Below, in pieces: positions 6,421 through 39,229 of a DNA stretch of 64,000 nucleotides. The notes beneath the pieces are model-generated. The model worked only from the letters and a program-made list of their open reading frames with translations. It had not been told where the DNA came from and ran no database searches. Both the position numbers and the translations under genes were made by a program. The stretch is taken from positions 1 to 64,000 of the forward strand of contig JAMCQL010000034.1 in assembly GCA_023381615.1 (NCBI GenBank). The letters run 5' to 3'. The DNA is from Bacteroidota bacterium. Lineage in GTDB: Bacteria > Bacteroidota > Ignavibacteria > Kryptoniales > JAKASW01. Every line of letters starts with the position of its first letter. Within the stretch, counting starts at the first letter, position 1.

Positions 6421-6520
6421 CAAGGGACTAAGGGACATAGAGACAAAGGCACAAAGATGTTCTGCTACTCTGCGCCTTTGTACCTCTGGAGCTTTGTCCC
6501 TTTTGGACTTTGTGCCTTTC
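6421..6520. repeat. CAAAG-type inverted repeat between ilvN and ilvC
   Basis: The gap holds AAAGGCACAAAG (6445-6456) and its reverse complement CTTTGTGCCTTT (6508-6519), with further GGGACAAAG-like words on both arms. Similar sequence occurs at 38011-38120, 29511-29610 and about 60081-60113. It forms an imperfect hairpin inside the operon and may affect transcript stability. It contains no ORF. Confidence 0.65.
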
Positions 6521-18955: not shown

Positions 18956-19975
18956 TTACTTCAGATACTGAAATACTTGAACACGCTTGTTGCCTGAATC
19001 CACAACGTAGATGCGATCCTTCGAGTCGATGAAAATTCCCGAAGGAAGGAGAAAATTACCAAACTTGTTCCCTGAGCCTCCAAAAGCCATTAGAAGTTTT
19101 CCTTCCTGATCGAAGATTTGCACAACATCGAAAAGCGCGTCGACAACATAGATGTGCCCGTCATTGTCTAACGCGATTCCCTTGGGACGCGCAAAATCGC
19201 CGAATCCATTCCCTAACCGGCCAAACTTGTAAACGAATGTTCCATCAGCGCGGAGGACTTGAATCCGAAAATTCATCGCATCGACAACGTAAAATCTATC
19301 AGCAACAGCCTCACGTGTATCATTTCCGGCACAGAGATACACTGGAAAGTTAAACTCCCGATCTGCAGTGCCTCTCCCACCGATGCGAAACTTTTCATGC
19401 CCCTGTAAGTCAAAAACAATTATCTGGTTTGCTCCCGTATCTGTCACATAGAGCAATCCGCCGTATATCGATATTCCCGTGGGTCTCGTCAATCCATCCT
19501 TAATTGAAAATAGATAATTCCCCTTTTTATCAAACACCATTACTTCACCCAGTTCAGAGTCAGTTACATAAAACGTCTCATCGGGTGCTACGGCCAAACC
19601 GATAGGCGACTTAAGCAGGTGGACGTTCCCTCCTTTGATGAACTTATACTCTTTGCGTTCGAAGTCAAAAATGTGCACACCGTGGTCACCTATATCTGTT
19701 ACGTAGATGCGGCCGTCACTGTCGACGGCAACGCTCTGCGGTCTGACGAGAGAACCAACGTTATCCTCTGCACCCAGAATAAAATCTATAGCTTTCTTCC
19801 ACCAAGGTTTTTCTATACCGATATCCGCTTTGCTTGAAAACGCATAGAGGAACTCTATCCGCGGCTTTTCCGGGGGCAGCGGCCAGACAAGTTTTCTGCT
19901 CGACTTTTGCTGAGGCAAACCATCAGCATTGAAGAGACTCACAAACATCAAAGCAATCAAAAATGGCTTCATCAT
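18956..19975 (-). CDS. NHL-repeat beta-propeller protein, cytochrome-associated
   Basis: 339-aa exported protein with a short signal sequence. It has the motif WPLPPEKPRIEF (about residues 31-42), then five to six NHL blades, each with xxPxGIAVDxxGxIYVVDxxxxxVQVFD (for example around residues 77, 165, 235 and 285). Such propellers often sit beside outer-membrane multiheme cytochromes and are thought to act as scaffolds. The start overlaps the kinase gene by 4 nt, and the stop lies 4 nt before the large cytochrome, so the three are co-expressed. It is paralogous to the lipoprotein at 24337-25377, which carries the same WPxPPEKPRIEF motif. Confidence 0.82.
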   Translation of the reverse strand: MMKPFLIALMFVSLFNADGLPQQKSSRKLVWPLPPEKPRIEFLYAFSSKADIGIEKPWWKKAIDFILGAEDNVGSLVRPQSVAVDSDGRIYVTDIGDHGVHIFDFERKEYKFIKGGNVHLLKSPIGLAVAPDETFYVTDSELGEVMVFDKKGNYLFSIKDGLTRPTGISIYGGLLYVTDTGANQIIVFDLQGHEKFRIGGRGTADREFNFPVYLCAGNDTREAVADRFYVVDAMNFRIQVLRADGTFVYKFGRLGNGFGDFARPKGIALDNDGHIYVVDALFDVVQIFDQEGKLLMAFGGSGNKFGNFLLPSGIFIDSKDRIYVVDSGNKRVQVFQYLK

Positions 19976-21540
19976 GCAACCGTTTGCGCTGTTACTTCTA
20001 TCACTTTCATGAACCTCGAGCTCTCCACACCTGTAGGAATCCTCACCGTGAACGTCGTGCCCTTGTCAATCCCGCTTTCGAAAAAGATCTCGCCGTGATG
20101 CTGCTCGATTATCCTCTTCGTCACAGCTAAGCCGAGTCCGGTTCCGTTACGTTTTCCAAACGTAACAAAGGGATCGAATATCTTGTCGTGAATTTCCACC
20201 GGAATTCCGCAGCCCGTATCGCTTATCCTAAACACAATGTGTCCATCCTCTCGGTCTGTGACGAGCAAAATCTCGCCATCTTTAGAAATCGCGTCCTCAG
20301 CGTTGTTTATGATGTTGAACAATGCCCGCTCCAAACGGTTGTCGTCGAATCGCGCACTGCCTGCACATCCATGATGAACAATAAGGTGAATTTTCTTTGA
20401 GTCAAGTTGACGCACGGCAGCCGATGAGATCGAATTTACGAATTCCTCCACGTCATGAATTTCCAATTGGAGTCTTATCTCGCCGCGCGAGAAATCAAGT
20501 AGTTCTTGCGTCATTGTGCTCATTCGGTCCAGAGAATTGTGAGCGATGCTGAAAATTCTTGACAACCTCTCATCAGTTTGGTCGCAGGTCATTTGCAAAG
20601 ACTCAAGCGCCAACCGTGTCGTCGTTATTGGATTTCTAAGATCGTGAACTATGCTTCCCGCCATCTGTCCTATCGTCGAAAGCCGCTCTTTACGTATCAA
20701 TTCACTCTGGACCTGCTTCAACCGTTCCCGCATGTTGTTGAAAGAACGTGCGAGTTTACCAAGTTCATCCTTGTGTCCCCCTTCGTCAACAACAAAATCC
20801 AAATTCCCACTCCCCACAACTTCAGTCGCTTGGACGAGCCGCCTGACAGGCTTCAACACAAGGAACTTGAAATTAGTAACGCCGACTACTGAGCCGACAA
20901 TTGCGAATATGAGAAAAGCCCAGACAGAACGCGCCCAGTTTGCTCTCATAACTGAAGTTACGTTTGGGGTCGAGACATACATATGTACAACACCTATGAC
21001 TGCGCCAACGGGAACGTCATGGCATGATTGACATTTCTTTTCTGCCCGAAGTGAGACAAAGGCTTCGACGCTGTCGCCTTTGAAGAAACAGAGCGGCGCA
21101 GTTGAGGAAGTTGTTTTTATCTCATCTAACAAATGACCGTCAAGAATGTCTGCGCGCTGCAGCTGCTTGAGACGTTCAATATTTTCTGGACGAAGGAGAT
21201 TTGAATCTAGATGTAAATTCTGGAACTGAAATTGAAATTGGAGGTGCTTTACATTTCCAATATTCACCCCATGCTCTTCTGATCCTTGAGTAACATTAGG
21301 AATACCGGCAACCATATTATTATAAGAACGGGCTGTAACGAGATTGTACACTGCCATTGCTTGTGTTCTTGCAAAACTCTCTGTCAACTCAAGTACTTGG
21401 TTTCTTTCATGGGTATAATTGAGATATATGCTCAATGCAACCGCAATCAGAAACAGCGGCATGATTATCAGATAAAACTTTGCTAAGAGGTTCATATTAC
21501 TAAATGTCACTTTGGTGCTTGCTTTCTGCTTATTCATCAC
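19972..21540 (-). CDS. Sensor histidine kinase with a c-type heme sensor domain
   Basis: 522-aa membrane kinase. TM1 about 20-41, extracytoplasmic sensor 42-204, TM2 about 205-226, HAMP 227-280, HisKA with His299 (SIVHDLRNP) and HATPase (NIINNAEDA, DTGCGIP, GTGLGL). The sensor contains CQSCH at 170-174 followed by VGAVIGVVHMYVS, so a covalently bound heme can report redox state or a gas or acceptor. The start is GTG at 21540, or the ATG one codon later. Lying between an outer-membrane barrel gene (6 nt) and the NHL gene (4-nt overlap), it probably senses the activity of the same electron-transfer system. Its partner may be the single-domain regulator at 25804-26235. Confidence 0.88.
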   Translation of the reverse strand: MMNKQKASTKVTFSNMNLLAKFYLIIMPLFLIAVALSIYLNYTHERNQVLELTESFARTQAMAVYNLVTARSYNNMVAGIPNVTQGSEEHGVNIGNVKHLQFQFQFQNLHLDSNLLRPENIERLKQLQRADILDGHLLDEIKTTSSTAPLCFFKGDSVEAFVSLRAEKKCQSCHDVPVGAVIGVVHMYVSTPNVTSVMRANWARSVWAFLIFAIVGSVVGVTNFKFLVLKPVRRLVQATEVVGSGNLDFVVDEGGHKDELGKLARSFNNMRERLKQVQSELIRKERLSTIGQMAGSIVHDLRNPITTTRLALESLQMTCDQTDERLSRIFSIAHNSLDRMSTMTQELLDFSRGEIRLQLEIHDVEEFVNSISSAAVRQLDSKKIHLIVHHGCAGSARFDDNRLERALFNIINNAEDAISKDGEILLVTDREDGHIVFRISDTGCGIPVEIHDKIFDPFVTFGKRNGTGLGLAVTKRIIEQHHGEIFFESGIDKGTTFTVRIPTGVESSRFMKVIEVTAQTVA

Positions 21541-27757: not shown

Positions 27758-29281
27758 TTAACCGTGTGATTGCTTGATAGGGATGCTAATCGTAACAACG
27801 GTTCCCTTGTGGACTTCACTCGAAATTGTAATTGAGCCTTTATGCTGCTCCACTATTCGCTTTGAGATTGCCATGCCAAGGCCGGTGCCTTTGTGTTTTG
27901 TCGTGAAAAACGGTTTGAAAATCTTTTCAAGATTCTCCTGTGAAATACCGGAGCCAGTATCGGTGATTTCAATCTTGACTGAAGAATTTTCTTTACTTGT
28001 TTTAACAGCAAGTGTTCCACCGCCCGGCATCGCCTGAACGGCATTAAGCATGATGTTCCACAGCAATTGCTGAAGGAGGTTCCTGTCTGCTATAATCGCG
28101 GTGTTATGATTTTGCAGGCTAACATCCATCTTGATGGATGCCGCCTTAAGCTGCAGGGAAAGAAGCGAAATTGTCTTTTCAACTACCTCGTCTATTTTCA
28201 CCTCTTCGAACACCGGAGGAGATGGGCGAGCATAGCTGAGCAGATCGTTAGTTGTACGGTTTATTCTTCCTAACTGCTCCATCATCTCAGCTATGATTTC
28301 CTTATGAGGATCATCTTTGGAAATCTCAGTATCGAATATCTGAAGCGCTCCAAGGACTCCAGCCACGGGATTTCTTATTTCATGAGCAATGCTTGCAGCC
28401 ATTTCGCCTGTCGTCGCAAGACGATCAGCTTGTTCGAGCTGCATCTGATGCATCTCGTGAAGTTTAGCATTTGTTTGATTCAATTGTTCAATAAGATTGT
28501 TGAAGGCGCGGCTCAGATCAGCAACCTCGTCTTTACTTTTCGGGGAATTGAACAGCGGGAACATTGTCTGTTCTCCGCTTTCAAGCTTGGCGAGACCATT
28601 CTCCACCTGATGCATGTGCGTCCGCAGCTTTCTGATAGGTGAGATCACCAGAACGAATAAAGCTATAAAAATAACAGATCCTAAACCACCGAATATCACT
28701 GCGGCCATCATGATGTTGTTAACACTGTGGCTGCGAGATATTGCGCGTAGATTGTTCATCGCTACATTCACAGCAAAATAACCGCACGTTGTTTCCGGCT
28801 CTTTGTGACAACGATAGCATTCAGGTTTTTTGACGATGGGTATGATAACATATTCATAGAGATCGCCATTTTCGCGAACTGTCCAGAAACGGTCGCCTTT
28901 CCACTCGGGCAGCGGACGAAAGTTTTCCATTGGAAATTTCTCAGATACACGGTCATCTTTTGCACTCAACGCAACGGTGCCGTCCGGTTTCAAAATGAAC
29001 GCATCGCTTGCCTCCCCAGACGTAATTGCCAGTTTGAGTGCAGATTGCAGGTGCTTGTTGTCGCCCTCAAGCATGACATGCTCAAGAAGAGCCTTCCCAA
29101 ATTCAGCAGTTGCATGAGCTGTCGCCTGCGCCTGCTTCTCCAACATCTGAGAGCCTGTTCGATATGCAAGGAATACAAACGCAAAACCTGTTGTCAAAAG
29201 AACCAGCACAACGGCAGCTGCAAATTTCCTACCAAGGGTAGGAAACATTTTTTCAAGAAAGTCTCTCAGCGCCTGTGTCAT
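27758..29281 (-). CDS. Sensor histidine kinase with a c-type heme sensor domain, NtrB-like partner
   Basis: 507 aa. TM1 about 19-40, extracytoplasmic sensor 41-189, TM2 about 190-213, HAMP, HisKA with His300 (SIAHEIRNPVAG) and HATPase (NIMLNAVQAM, DTGSGI, GTGLGMAISK). The sensor has CYRCH at 155-159 followed by GYFAVNVAM. This is similar in concept to the heme-c PAS sensors of Geobacter chemoreceptors GSU0582/GSU0935. It probably phosphorylates the adjoining NtrC-type regulator. The signal could be periplasmic redox potential, NO/CO or an acceptor; the sequence does not tell which. It differs from the other heme kinase in sensor sequence, so the two may read different cues. Confidence 0.88.
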   Translation of the reverse strand: MTQALRDFLEKMFPTLGRKFAAAVVLVLLTTGFAFVFLAYRTGSQMLEKQAQATAHATAEFGKALLEHVMLEGDNKHLQSALKLAITSGEASDAFILKPDGTVALSAKDDRVSEKFPMENFRPLPEWKGDRFWTVRENGDLYEYVIIPIVKKPECYRCHKEPETTCGYFAVNVAMNNLRAISRSHSVNNIMMAAVIFGGLGSVIFIALFVLVISPIRKLRTHMHQVENGLAKLESGEQTMFPLFNSPKSKDEVADLSRAFNNLIEQLNQTNAKLHEMHQMQLEQADRLATTGEMAASIAHEIRNPVAGVLGALQIFDTEISKDDPHKEIIAEMMEQLGRINRTTNDLLSYARPSPPVFEEVKIDEVVEKTISLLSLQLKAASIKMDVSLQNHNTAIIADRNLLQQLLWNIMLNAVQAMPGGGTLAVKTSKENSSVKIEITDTGSGISQENLEKIFKPFFTTKHKGTGLGMAISKRIVEQHKGSITISSEVHKGTVVTISIPIKQSHG

Positions 29282-36224: not shown

Positions 36225-37544
36225 ATGAAAATTCTATTGACAATGTGTTTCGCAATTGTAATGCTATCGCCGATTGCGTTTGCACAGCAATATCCGCAGC
36301 CCATGCTCCTTCCGGGCCAAAGCCAAATCTCCGGTGGACTGGGTATTTCGTGGATAAACGGAACCCCGTATTACATGATCGGAGTTATGCCCGATCTTTC
36401 GTTCGGTAAGCTCGGTGTCGGTCTTAATCTGACTTTGAACATTTCAGCCACCGACGGCACGATTCGAAAAGTCGATTGGTCAAACGGTGCCTACCGGAAA
36501 ATAATTCGTTATGTTAGTTGGGGACAAAGGCACGATCCGGTTTATGCGCGAGTTGGGCAGCTTGACATGGCGACTATCGGACACGGTTTTATCGTGTACG
36601 ATTATAACAACAGCGCGAGCTTCGACGATAGAACAATAGGAGCCGAGCTAAATCTTGATTTCACAAAGTTCGGTTTCGAGACAATGTACGGCAATTTCCA
36701 AACACCCGGTTTGATGGGCGGTAGAGCCTATGTACGCCCGCTGAAGTTCACACAGCTTGCAAGTGTTCCGATAATCGGCGGGTTTGAACTTGGCGCTACT
36801 TATGTAACCGATCAGAATCCATATTCGGGCGTGGTCAACGCGAGTTATAACCAAATCACTCAGCGCGACAGCGTAATTACCAATAAGGGGAAAATCGCGG
36901 AGTTTGGTTTTGATGCCGGATTGCCGCTCCTTCGGATCCCATTCGTGGACGTGGATCTCTACTATGATTACGCAAAAATCGTAAACTTCGGAAGCGGCTC
37001 TGCTGTCGGACTTCTCGCGGATTTCAACGGGCTTGGGCTTGCAAAAGTGTCTTTGAAAGTTGAGCGTCAGTTCATAGGAGACAAATTTATACCGGAATAC
37101 TTCAACCAATTCTACGAACTCGACAGGTATACTCCGAACGCCAAACCATTCATCAGCAAGGCTCAATTGCTCGACAGCATGAAAGCTTCGAGCGGATGGT
37201 ATGGGCAGATCATGGTGGCGGTTCTCCAGAATTTCCAGATAGTCGGCGGCTACCGTGGGATCGCAGATGATCCTCAAGGCGGACTTCTCCATCTTGAAAC
37301 ACGGTTCCCGAGTGTAGTCCCAATGATCACATTCAGCGCCGGTTACGACAGGCGAGGCGTTCAAAATTTCGGAGATGTATTCAAGCTCGATAATAGGTCT
37401 CTCTTGTATGCATTCTTCGGTTATAAGCCTTACCCGTTCATGACTGTCGGCTTCAATTACTATTGGACATTCATTCCGGAAAACGGGACTTACAGCGTAC
37501 AGAGGAGAGTTGAACCGCGCGTGATGTTTAATTTCTCATTCTGA
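36225..37544 (+). CDS. Predicted outer-membrane beta-barrel protein
   Basis: 439 aa with a clean signal peptide (MKILLTMCFAIVMLSPIAFAQQ) and SD GAGGTGAG. The mature part is a run of amphipathic strands with Gly/Asn turns (GGLGISWINGTPYYMIGVMPDLSFGKLGVGLNL) and a terminal VEPRVMFNFSF, the C-terminal Phe that the Bam machinery recognises. It lies 17 nt after spmB, so may share its transcript. No substrate signature was recognised. Confidence 0.75.
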   Translation: MKILLTMCFAIVMLSPIAFAQQYPQPMLLPGQSQISGGLGISWINGTPYYMIGVMPDLSFGKLGVGLNLTLNISATDGTIRKVDWSNGAYRKIIRYVSWGQRHDPVYARVGQLDMATIGHGFIVYDYNNSASFDDRTIGAELNLDFTKFGFETMYGNFQTPGLMGGRAYVRPLKFTQLASVPIIGGFELGATYVTDQNPYSGVVNASYNQITQRDSVITNKGKIAEFGFDAGLPLLRIPFVDVDLYYDYAKIVNFGSGSAVGLLADFNGLGLAKVSLKVERQFIGDKFIPEYFNQFYELDRYTPNAKPFISKAQLLDSMKASSGWYGQIMVAVLQNFQIVGGYRGIADDPQGGLLHLETRFPSVVPMITFSAGYDRRGVQNFGDVFKLDNRSLLYAFFGYKPYPFMTVGFNYYWTFIPENGTYSVQRRVEPRVMFNFSF

Positions 37545-37598: not shown

Positions 37599-38003
37599 AT
37601 GGTAAAAAGAACGCGGCTGGCTATTGTTGTTATCATTTCCATTGGAGTTGGCAGCTTGCTAATCCACAATAGAGTTTATGCTCATCCACAAACTCAACCG
37701 ACGTTTGCAAAAAATCTTCAAGTACTGAAGTTCGTGAAATCAAAGGAAGAGTTGAAGGGCTGGATGAAAATGATAAAGACCAGCCTCGGCGTTGACTGCG
37801 ACTATTGTCATAACACGGACAACTTCGCGAGCGATGAAAAACCGGCAAAGCGGAAAGCAAGAATGATGTTGAAGATGCTGATTCAGATTAGACAGGATTA
37901 TTTTTCTTATCCAAACGCAAAACAGCCGACATGTTACACTTGCCATCAAGGTCATAAGGAACCTGTCAATGAACCCTCGGGGGGTTTTAAGAGCAACGAT
38001 TGA
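37599..38003 (+). CDS. Diheme c-type cytochrome, reaction-centre-cytochrome-like
   Basis: 134 aa. A signal or anchor (about 6-28) precedes two heme sites, CDYCH at 67-71 and CYTCH near 117. LGVDCDYCHNTDNFASDEKPAKRKARMM closely resembles the LGVxCxxCH...DxKPxKxxAR pattern of photosynthetic reaction-centre cytochrome c subunit-like proteins that are widespread in non-phototrophs. SD GGAGAAG precedes the ATG. It stands between two barrel genes, one of them heme-bearing, suggesting that it shuttles electrons at the outer membrane. Confidence 0.85.
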   Translation: MVKRTRLAIVVIISIGVGSLLIHNRVYAHPQTQPTFAKNLQVLKFVKSKEELKGWMKMIKTSLGVDCDYCHNTDNFASDEKPAKRKARMMLKMLIQIRQDYFSYPNAKQPTCYTCHQGHKEPVNEPSGGFKSND

Positions 38004-38010
38004 GTCTGAA

Positions 38011-38120
38011 GAGGGCACAAAGGTGCTAAGGGACAAAGTGAAAGAGCAAATCATAAGTTCCAAATCTCAAACGCTAAACCTTTGCTCCTCTGTGCCTTTG
38101 TGCCTCTGCCCCTCTTTTTT
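38011..38120 (+). terminator. CAAAG-type inverted repeat, possible terminator of the diheme cytochrome
   Basis: GAGGGCACAAAGG near 38011 is partly complementary to CCTCTGTGCCTTTGTGCCTC near 38086-38106, followed by CCCCTCTTTTTT. The long imperfect hairpin plus T-run could end transcription. It belongs to the same repeat family as 6421-6520. Confidence 0.5.
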
Positions 38121-38140
38121 AAATTGCTGAAGGAGGAAGA

Positions 38141-39229
38141 ATGAGGTCGACTTTTATCTTTGTCGTATTTTTTTCAATTGTTAATGCAGCATTTGCCCTT
38201 CCTCGATTTGCAATTATGACCGGGATGCAATGCCTGAACTGCCACGTTAACCCGACGGGTGGCGAGCTCAGGAACAGTTACGGAAGTTCGGATTTCGTCG
38301 ACGACCATCTGAGATTGATTCCAGCACATGGGAACGATTATGATTTCAACCCTAAAATCAACGACAACATCCTCCTCGGAGGAGACGTTAGGTTCCAATA
38401 TCTCTATGACGGCAACACAAAGAACACAACTTTCCAGTCAATGGAAGGAGCGATCTACTCTTTAATTCGTCTTTACACTTCCACAAGCTTCTACGTGAAG
38501 TACGATTTTGCGAACACGGCATACGAAGCCTACGGACTTTATAATTTCAATTCGGGAGACTCATACGTAAAGGTAGGCGCGTTCCTGCCGTCGTACGGAA
38601 TACGACTCGACGATCATACGGCTTACACCCGCGGCGGAAATTTTGGATACTTGCAGGGAATTCCGCAAGTAGGACTGATCTTCTTTCCTGATTACCGCGA
38701 TTTGGGAGTGGAAGTAGGTTCGAAGTTCGACAACTTCTTCGTTACCGTCGACGCGACGAACGGCGACGGAGCAAGCAACATAAACTTCAACTCTAAGAAG
38801 GCATTCATCGGGAGCGTTGAATATTTGGCAAAGGGTTTCGTGAATTTCATGTTAGGCGGCTCAGCTTACGTTACCGGCTTGACCACAATGTACGGCGTGC
38901 ACGCGGGAGTCGGAATTGATAAGCGCCTGACGATTCTATCGGAATTTGATTGGGCTAAGTCGCTGCCGACTTTACTACCGGACGAAAAGTCCAACGCCGC
39001 ATTTGTTGAAGTCAGCTACAATTTCATGAACGGTTTGTTCGGTGTCGGAAGGTTTGACTACTTTCGAAACTCGGCGGGCGGGCAAATCTATGCCCGTTAC
39101 ATAATCGGCGCTGATATTTTTCCGATTCCCCATCTTGACTTCATGCCTCAAGTGCGTTTCAATACGACAAACGTAACTGGCGCTCCGCAGCCGGTTGAAG
39201 CGCTGATTCAGTCGCACATCTATTTCTAG
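38141..39229 (+). CDS. Monoheme cytochrome-porin fusion (Cyc2-like architecture)
   Basis: 362 aa. The signal peptide ends at FALP, and the heme motif CLNCH sits at 31-35 in the setting RFAIMTGMQCLNCHVNPTGG. The rest is a predicted outer-membrane barrel: alternating strands from about residue 65 with a final LIQSHIYF. One heme in front of a barrel is the layout of Cyc2 iron oxidases, whose N-terminus also has a Phe-Ala-Arg-x-Thr-Gly-Met-x-Cys pattern. The barrel sequence was not recognisable as Cyc2 by eye, so it is an architectural analogue. SD AGGAGG is strong. It may pass electrons across the outer membrane alone or with the preceding diheme cytochrome. Confidence 0.75.
   Translation: MRSTFIFVVFFSIVNAAFALPRFAIMTGMQCLNCHVNPTGGELRNSYGSSDFVDDHLRLIPAHGNDYDFNPKINDNILLGGDVRFQYLYDGNTKNTTFQSMEGAIYSLIRLYTSTSFYVKYDFANTAYEAYGLYNFNSGDSYVKVGAFLPSYGIRLDDHTAYTRGGNFGYLQGIPQVGLIFFPDYRDLGVEVGSKFDNFFVTVDATNGDGASNINFNSKKAFIGSVEYLAKGFVNFMLGGSAYVTGLTTMYGVHAGVGIDKRLTILSEFDWAKSLPTLLPDEKSNAAFVEVSYNFMNGLFGVGRFDYFRNSAGGQIYARYIIGADIFPIPHLDFMPQVRFNTTNVTGAPQPVEALIQSHIYF

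Follow-up and report, generated by a model that had tools for sequence, protein, structure and literature searches.

Background

Fused cytochrome-porins of the Cyc2 type, sorted into clusters 1-3, are known from Mariprofundus, Acidithiobacillus and Leptospirillum (Cyt572), and from Chlorobium too, and neutrophilic iron oxidation is traced with Cyc2 as marker gene. In porins of 16 strands, the constriction loop L3 follows strand 5.

The Cyc2 barrel itself is described as a 16-stranded porin, modelled on OprO/OprP, and the Cyc2 proteins tested oxidise dissolved Fe(II) (PMC8406198). The published signature consists of AXPXFAR[Q/K][T/Y] before the CXXCH heme site and PXL behind it (PMC8406198); the published length filter is at least 365 aa. 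According to a further study, the Cyc2 part of the superfamily was spread by transfer (PMC12442345).

The window (the whole stretch of 64,000 nucleotides analysed here, contig JAMCQL010000034.1) comes from a 3.37-Mb draft genome of the class Ignavibacteria, order Kryptoniales. It contains a pair of cytochrome genes, the second of which recalls Cyc2 in its layout.

The diheme and cytochrome-porin genes

The features of the pair are as follows.

37599-38003, plus strand: diheme c-type cytochrome gene, 134 aa (NF033196 c_type_nonphoto / CytoC_RC)
37797-37811, plus strand: first heme site of the diheme, CDYCH, residues 67-71; CxxCHN invariant among relatives
37932-37946, plus strand: second heme site of the diheme, CYTCH, residues 112-116; TCHQGH invariant among relatives
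38011-38110, no strand: imperfect, REP-like palindrome between both genes (RNA fold z -2.4)
38141-39229, plus strand: monoheme cytochrome-porin gene, 362 aa (NPTGG clade, assigned by profile to the Cyc2 superfamily)
38141-38197, plus strand: signal peptide of the cytochrome-porin by sequence inspection, residues 1-19, ending in AFA
38195-38284, plus strand: heme segment ALPRFAIMTGMQCLNCHVNPTGGELRNSYG, residues 19-48, in register with the Cyc2 signature
38231-38245, plus strand: heme site CLNCH of the cytochrome-porin, residues 31-35, invariant in homologs
38366-39226, plus strand: predicted outer-membrane barrel, residues 76-362 (about 16 strands by hand, 13 strong ones computed)
38564-38638, plus strand: conserved strand-and-loop YVKVGAFLPSYGIRLDDHTAYTRGG, residues 142-166, with invariant H159, probably at the place of porin L3

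A preliminary description of this DNA had proposed a diheme cytochrome beside a monoheme cytochrome-porin with the Cyc2 layout. Both genes are indeed present with their heme motifs, and in the second one the CXXCH at residues 31-35 stands right behind the signal peptide and is followed by a porin-like body. The pair had also been set apart from the large multiheme cluster, which agrees with their orientation, the cluster lying on the minus strand and the pair on the plus strand. Two sensor-kinase-like proteins of that cluster (19972-21540 and 27758-29281, minus strand) each carry a single CXXCH in their predicted periplasmic part and are possible c-type heme sensors.

The 134-aa protein scores 50.8 bits against Pfam CytoC_RC (cut-off 22.4) and 83.9 bits against NCBIfam NF033196 (cut-off 70), above both cut-offs. 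A PDB search matched it to PufC with E values down to 6e-18, the protein resembling one two-heme half. It is not PufC proper: its score against the NF040706 equivalog is 62.2 bits versus a cut-off of 150 bits, and it has two CXXCH motifs, not four hemes.

The 362-aa cytochrome-porin begins MRSTFIFVVFFSIVNAAFA / LPRFAIMTGMQCLNCHVNPTGG..., and a ribosome-binding site, AAGGAGG, is located at 38130. Its single CXXCH is N-terminal and ahead of the porin-like body, as in the published Cyc2 layout. Since this motif is kept in 39/39 homologs, picked from 39 loci by profile without selection on CXXCH, it is not there by chance. In a diverse alignment of 30 members, the invariant residues of the heme segment are P21, C31, C34, H35, G40 and R44, followed by G80, R84, M101, G146, P150, G153, H159, G189, E191, G239, E268 and G323; among these, R84, M101, H159 and E191 are candidates for the lumen. 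The heme loop of the clade reads CxxCHxNPTGGxxRN. The protein's own sequence has no match in Pfam or NCBIfam, and a PDB search with this single sequence returned only a chance match.

The palindrome between the genes is probably a dispersed repeat, outside the function of the pair. Its motif CCTTTGTGCCTCTG has 5 matches in the window versus 0.35 expected, with a copy near 6444-6488. Promoter and terminator scans found nothing above chance.

Relation to Cyc2 and FARKY proteins

By the published signature, PXL and length, the 362-aa protein is not a Cyc2. The motif PXFAR[Q/K][T/Y] is found in 0/55 members of the clade, the window protein reading PRFAIMT in the same register; behind CXXCH, in place of PXL, it reads CHVNPTGG; and with 362 aa it falls below the length filter, as do 15/55 relatives (<365 aa). 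These deviations are no argument against a Cyc2-like way of working.

A phylum-wide search with a DNA pattern for the Cyc2 signature yielded many proteins, of the types FARQT (the Cyc2 type) and FARKY. All those read have three residues between [T/Y] and the first Cys. The window protein, A-L-P-R-F-A-I-M-T-G-M-Q-C-L-N-C-H, has the same spacing, and its register is identical to that of the Cyc2 signature, A-x-P-x-F-A-x-x-T-x-x-x-C-x-x-C-H.

For the family versus FARKY, profile comparison with hhalign gave 99.5% at full length and 98.2% with barrels only. FARKY links to Cyc2 at 94-97%, the barrels giving 94%, and the heme segments of the family and of Cyc2 gave 95%. Compared directly, the family barrel and the barrel of Cyc2 proper reached only 9%. 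Controls stayed at or below 2%, both for reversed alignments and for an unrelated barrel family, the 439-aa one encoded at 36225-37544, for which only 10 relatives were entered. Independently, Cyc2 and FARKY proteins from outside the class match the family profile with their N-termini, at 1e-4 to 1e-5. Homology is supported, and it reaches Cyc2 through FARKY. The profiles thus support a distant homology of the cytochrome-porin to the Cyc2 superfamily, in its heme segment as well as in its barrel. The idea of a different-looking family that copies the Cyc2 layout therefore holds for the layout, but the protein is more than a lookalike.

In a tree of 64 sequences, NPTGG was recovered with 100/100, FARQT with 100/98 and FARKY weakly, with 82/49. 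NPTGG is a separate clade and does not lie inside the Cyc2 clade; the branching order given by this tree is limited because the alignments are so divergent. This branch of the superfamily is apparently undescribed so far, the consulted passages of papers on the respiration of Melioribacter, the evolution of Cyc2 and pathways of iron oxidation making no mention of it.

The source genome encodes two further members of the superfamily, each paralog having a different redox neighbour. A Cyc2-like protein, SIPSYARQTGLACSACHYNFPQLTPFGRLFKLNGY (SIPSYARQT...FPQLTPFGRLFKLNGY), is encoded in the gene run G000:C39:60909-70047 (locus L151:410-9548), with genes for a c-type monoheme, a c7-like pentaheme protein, a molybdopterin oxidoreductase, a 4Fe-4S ferredoxin-type protein and NrfD downstream; this run looks like a Cyc2-linked quinone-reacting complex. 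A tetraheme cytochrome is encoded in the same run, and so is a protein weakly similar to copper-binding ones. At G000:C83:43965-46315 (locus L152:3966-6316), the gene of a CCP_MauG diheme peroxidase is immediately followed by that of a FARKY cytochrome-porin.

Porin-like barrel and the DDH loop

Column-averaged periodicity of amphipathic strands showed 13 peaks, versus 3.6 +/- 1.6 in column shuffles (maximum 8), and the C-termini of the cytochrome-porins are aromatic (HIYF/HFWY). Against PDB, the best match of the family profile was Porin O, a weak one at E 0.034. Distant members of the family match Porin_4 (2.5e-6) and Porin_O_P (7.8e-4); with Porin_O_P (PF07396), the window protein has no match and the 7.8e-4 hit is the one among 30 relatives (1/30). 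AlphaFold2, run on a shallow input of 7 sequences (six close relatives added), returned a mean pLDDT of 32.5. Sequence patterns and profiles support a porin-like barrel as the predicted fold of the beta-rich body, and we infer that it is closed.

The longest conserved stretch, KxGxFxPxxGxRxDDHTxYxRGG, covers the end of strand 5 and the opening of the next loop, so that the R-x-DDH motif would sit where porins have their constriction loop L3. A putative metal site in the lumen, or a contact to the heme, is plausible at this loop, and M101 and H159 may be considered candidate distal heme ligands. Cyc2 and FARKY proteins lack the DDH motif, so that function may differ.

Distribution and inheritance

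Homologs of the cytochrome-porin occur in 138/197 sampled genomes of the class, among them genomes of 2.2-2.6 Mb. When the whole phylum was searched with the single sequence, 52 of the 53 genomes with a match belonged to the class. A phylum-wide profile search found full-length members (E < 1e-50) only in the class and, outside it, one partial match at a contig end. The gene is absent from seven genomes of the sister family within the same order, and the plasmids and viral contigs searched contain no relatives. Mapped on taxonomy, the cytochrome-porin tree has 12 label changes, where the minimum is 11 and shuffles give 31; so close an agreement fits mostly vertical inheritance.

Gene neighbourhood and partners

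The diheme gene lies directly upstream of the cytochrome-porin gene in 12/12 genomes of the same genus, with a gap of 45-137 bp in the 11 loci measured. The upstream genes beyond it are likewise conserved in the genus, so that part of the conservation of the pair is general inherited synteny. Downstream, gene order shifts within the genus and the pair persists. The early suggestion of the diheme as partner is strengthened by this constant position and by its being the sole NF033196 protein of the genome, and we regard it as the likely periplasmic partner of the cytochrome-porin. Sought in other genomes, the pair was recovered in all 12 of the genus; in other families, other cytochromes or none are adjacent, and this particular pair is specific to the source genus.

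Same-strand neighbours elsewhere include PSCyt1-like monohemes in families f4, f13, f17 and f18, of which Pfam confirmed one representative, small monohemes in f13, f17 and f23, and, in f10, monohemes of the Temptin_C type that carry a type IX secretion tail. The Temptin_C genes are located at L043:7185-7913, L044:7432-8100 and L045:7620-9530; their products have CxxCHxxPxGGG-type motifs resembling the heme loop of the cytochrome-porin, and secretion tails were seen in both proteins scanned (L043, L045). The Temptin_C protein is a possible extracellular partner of the cytochrome-porin in f10. Over the class, the surroundings of the barrel gene are enriched in CXXCH genes (18/84 versus 5/276, Fisher p 1e-8, kinship of genomes ignored). 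In 14 of 21 families, no heme gene lies within two genes of the cytochrome-porin.

Rieske-like and YceI-like genes, identified in part by Pfam and in part only by eye, recur near the cytochrome-porin in the distant families f8, f16, f21 and f25 (L065, L066, L074, L075). They were rejected as a shared module, being absent around the window pair.

The 439-aa predicted barrel (36225-37544, plus strand), which has no heme, occurs in 45/100 class genomes and matches NF047543 weakly, far below the cut-off. Outside the source genus it is generally unlinked to the cytochrome-porin. As a third component it was rejected, because other families have it far from the cytochrome-porin or on a different contig and because it is present in order-mates that lack the cytochrome-porin.

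Discussion

Kinship with a family that includes iron-oxidising Cyc2 suggests that the cytochrome-porin probably moves electrons across the outer membrane. We consider it reasonably probable, though well short of certain, that the 362-aa protein works as a redox porin of the outer membrane, belonging to a class-specific clade of the Cyc2 superfamily and passing electrons between a dissolved substrate and the diheme. After export, an N-terminal segment of about 55 residues would bind one c-type heme through Cys31, Cys34 and His35 and might act as a plug where the barrel, of roughly 16 strands, opens to the periplasm. Via this barrel, the heme could be reached by a small substrate in solution, in all likelihood a metal ion or complex that is redox-active, with the conserved R-x-DDH motif in the loop after strand 5 as a guide. 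Electrons would move among the substrate, the heme and the PufC-like diheme, which is supposed to contact the cytochrome-porin and would link it to the periplasmic electron-transfer chain.

Conservation over the class may point to a function that goes beyond specialised iron oxidation. A broader proposal is that the family forms a third branch of cytochrome-porins, class-wide and vertically inherited, with a lumenal DDH site and interchangeable cytochromes, and that its core task at the outer membrane is not Fe(II) respiration and may be, for example, reductive metal uptake or exchange with a soluble carrier. We put this forward tentatively, as possible and rather doubtful.

Electrons could also flow in the reductive direction, from a periplasmic cytochrome through the heme to a complex of ferric or cupric ions inside the barrel, whereupon the reduced ion could enter; the protein would then be a metal reductase and pore, serving nutrition or acting as an electron sink. 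Such a housekeeping role fits the conservation over the class, which is mostly vertical, and DDH, placed where L3 would be, may form a metal site, but no iron-uptake genes are adjacent in the loci read, and we hold this direction to be rather unlikely.

A true energy-yielding Fe(II) oxidase would oxidise Fe(II) in the barrel, as Cyc2 does, and send the electrons via the diheme to the respiratory chain. Superfamily membership, the common layout and the oxidation of dissolved Fe(II) by tested Cyc2 proteins (PMC8406198) speak for it. However, the clade is separate and has the Cyc2 signature in 0/55 members, it occurs across most of the class, even in genomes of 2.2-2.6 Mb, unlike a specialist metabolism, and the source genome has a closer Cyc2 relative in a respiratory-looking operon; we judge this role unlikely. 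An ordinary solute porin, with a structural or sensor heme and an unrelated diheme neighbour, is very improbable: the barrel resembles general and phosphate porins and many families have no cytochrome neighbour, but the heme site and the flanking P, G and R are invariant across more than 20 families, heme genes are enriched nearby and there are homologs with known redox function.

Published Cyc2 filters would discard the window protein by motif and length and, by motif, all 55 aligned relatives. Should the clade be redox-active, the class has monoheme cytochrome-porins far more widely than one would gather from the Cyc2 record. A branch that spans the class and is mostly vertical could help to root the superfamily and to tell which task is the older, Fe(II) oxidation or another. 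For the redox porin that we favour, the pair offers a compact test system of one barrel, one heme and one diheme partner.

Among known systems, the diheme shares with PufC, CytoC_RC and NF033196 proteins two CXXCH motifs in the pattern LGVxCxYCHN...NFASDxxPxKxxARxM; it is a single two-heme unit, whereas PufC has four hemes, and no context of a photosynthetic reaction centre was seen around it. With MtrCAB, PioAB, MtoAB and the porin-cytochrome conduits, the pair has in common a barrel and a cytochrome for electrons across the outer membrane. In contrast to MtrAB, PioAB and MtoAB, where a separate multiheme cytochrome is threaded through the barrel, the window protein has one heme fused to the barrel and no inserted multiheme wire, and its partner has only two hemes. 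The phosphate-selective porins OprO/OprP, the barrel class used to model Cyc2, are the weak top PDB profile match; they carry no heme, and their sequence similarity to the family is at the noise limit.

The closest profile relatives, over heme segment and barrel (98-99%), are the FARKY proteins of Chlorobi-like and related genomes, which fit the wider Cyc2 signature; unlike the window family, they keep AxPxFARKY and FPxxNxFGxxF...NGY and have neither the NPTGG loop nor the DDH motif. Cyc2 itself shares with the window protein a signal peptide closely followed by one CXXCH and, in the same chain, by a porin-like barrel, as well as the AxPxFA..T spacing to the heme site and distant profile homology. 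Where Cyc2 has R[Q/K] and PXL, the window protein has a CxxCHxNPTGGxxRN loop, and it differs further in its conserved R-x-DDH loop, its length of 362 aa, its other partners and its place in a separate clade.
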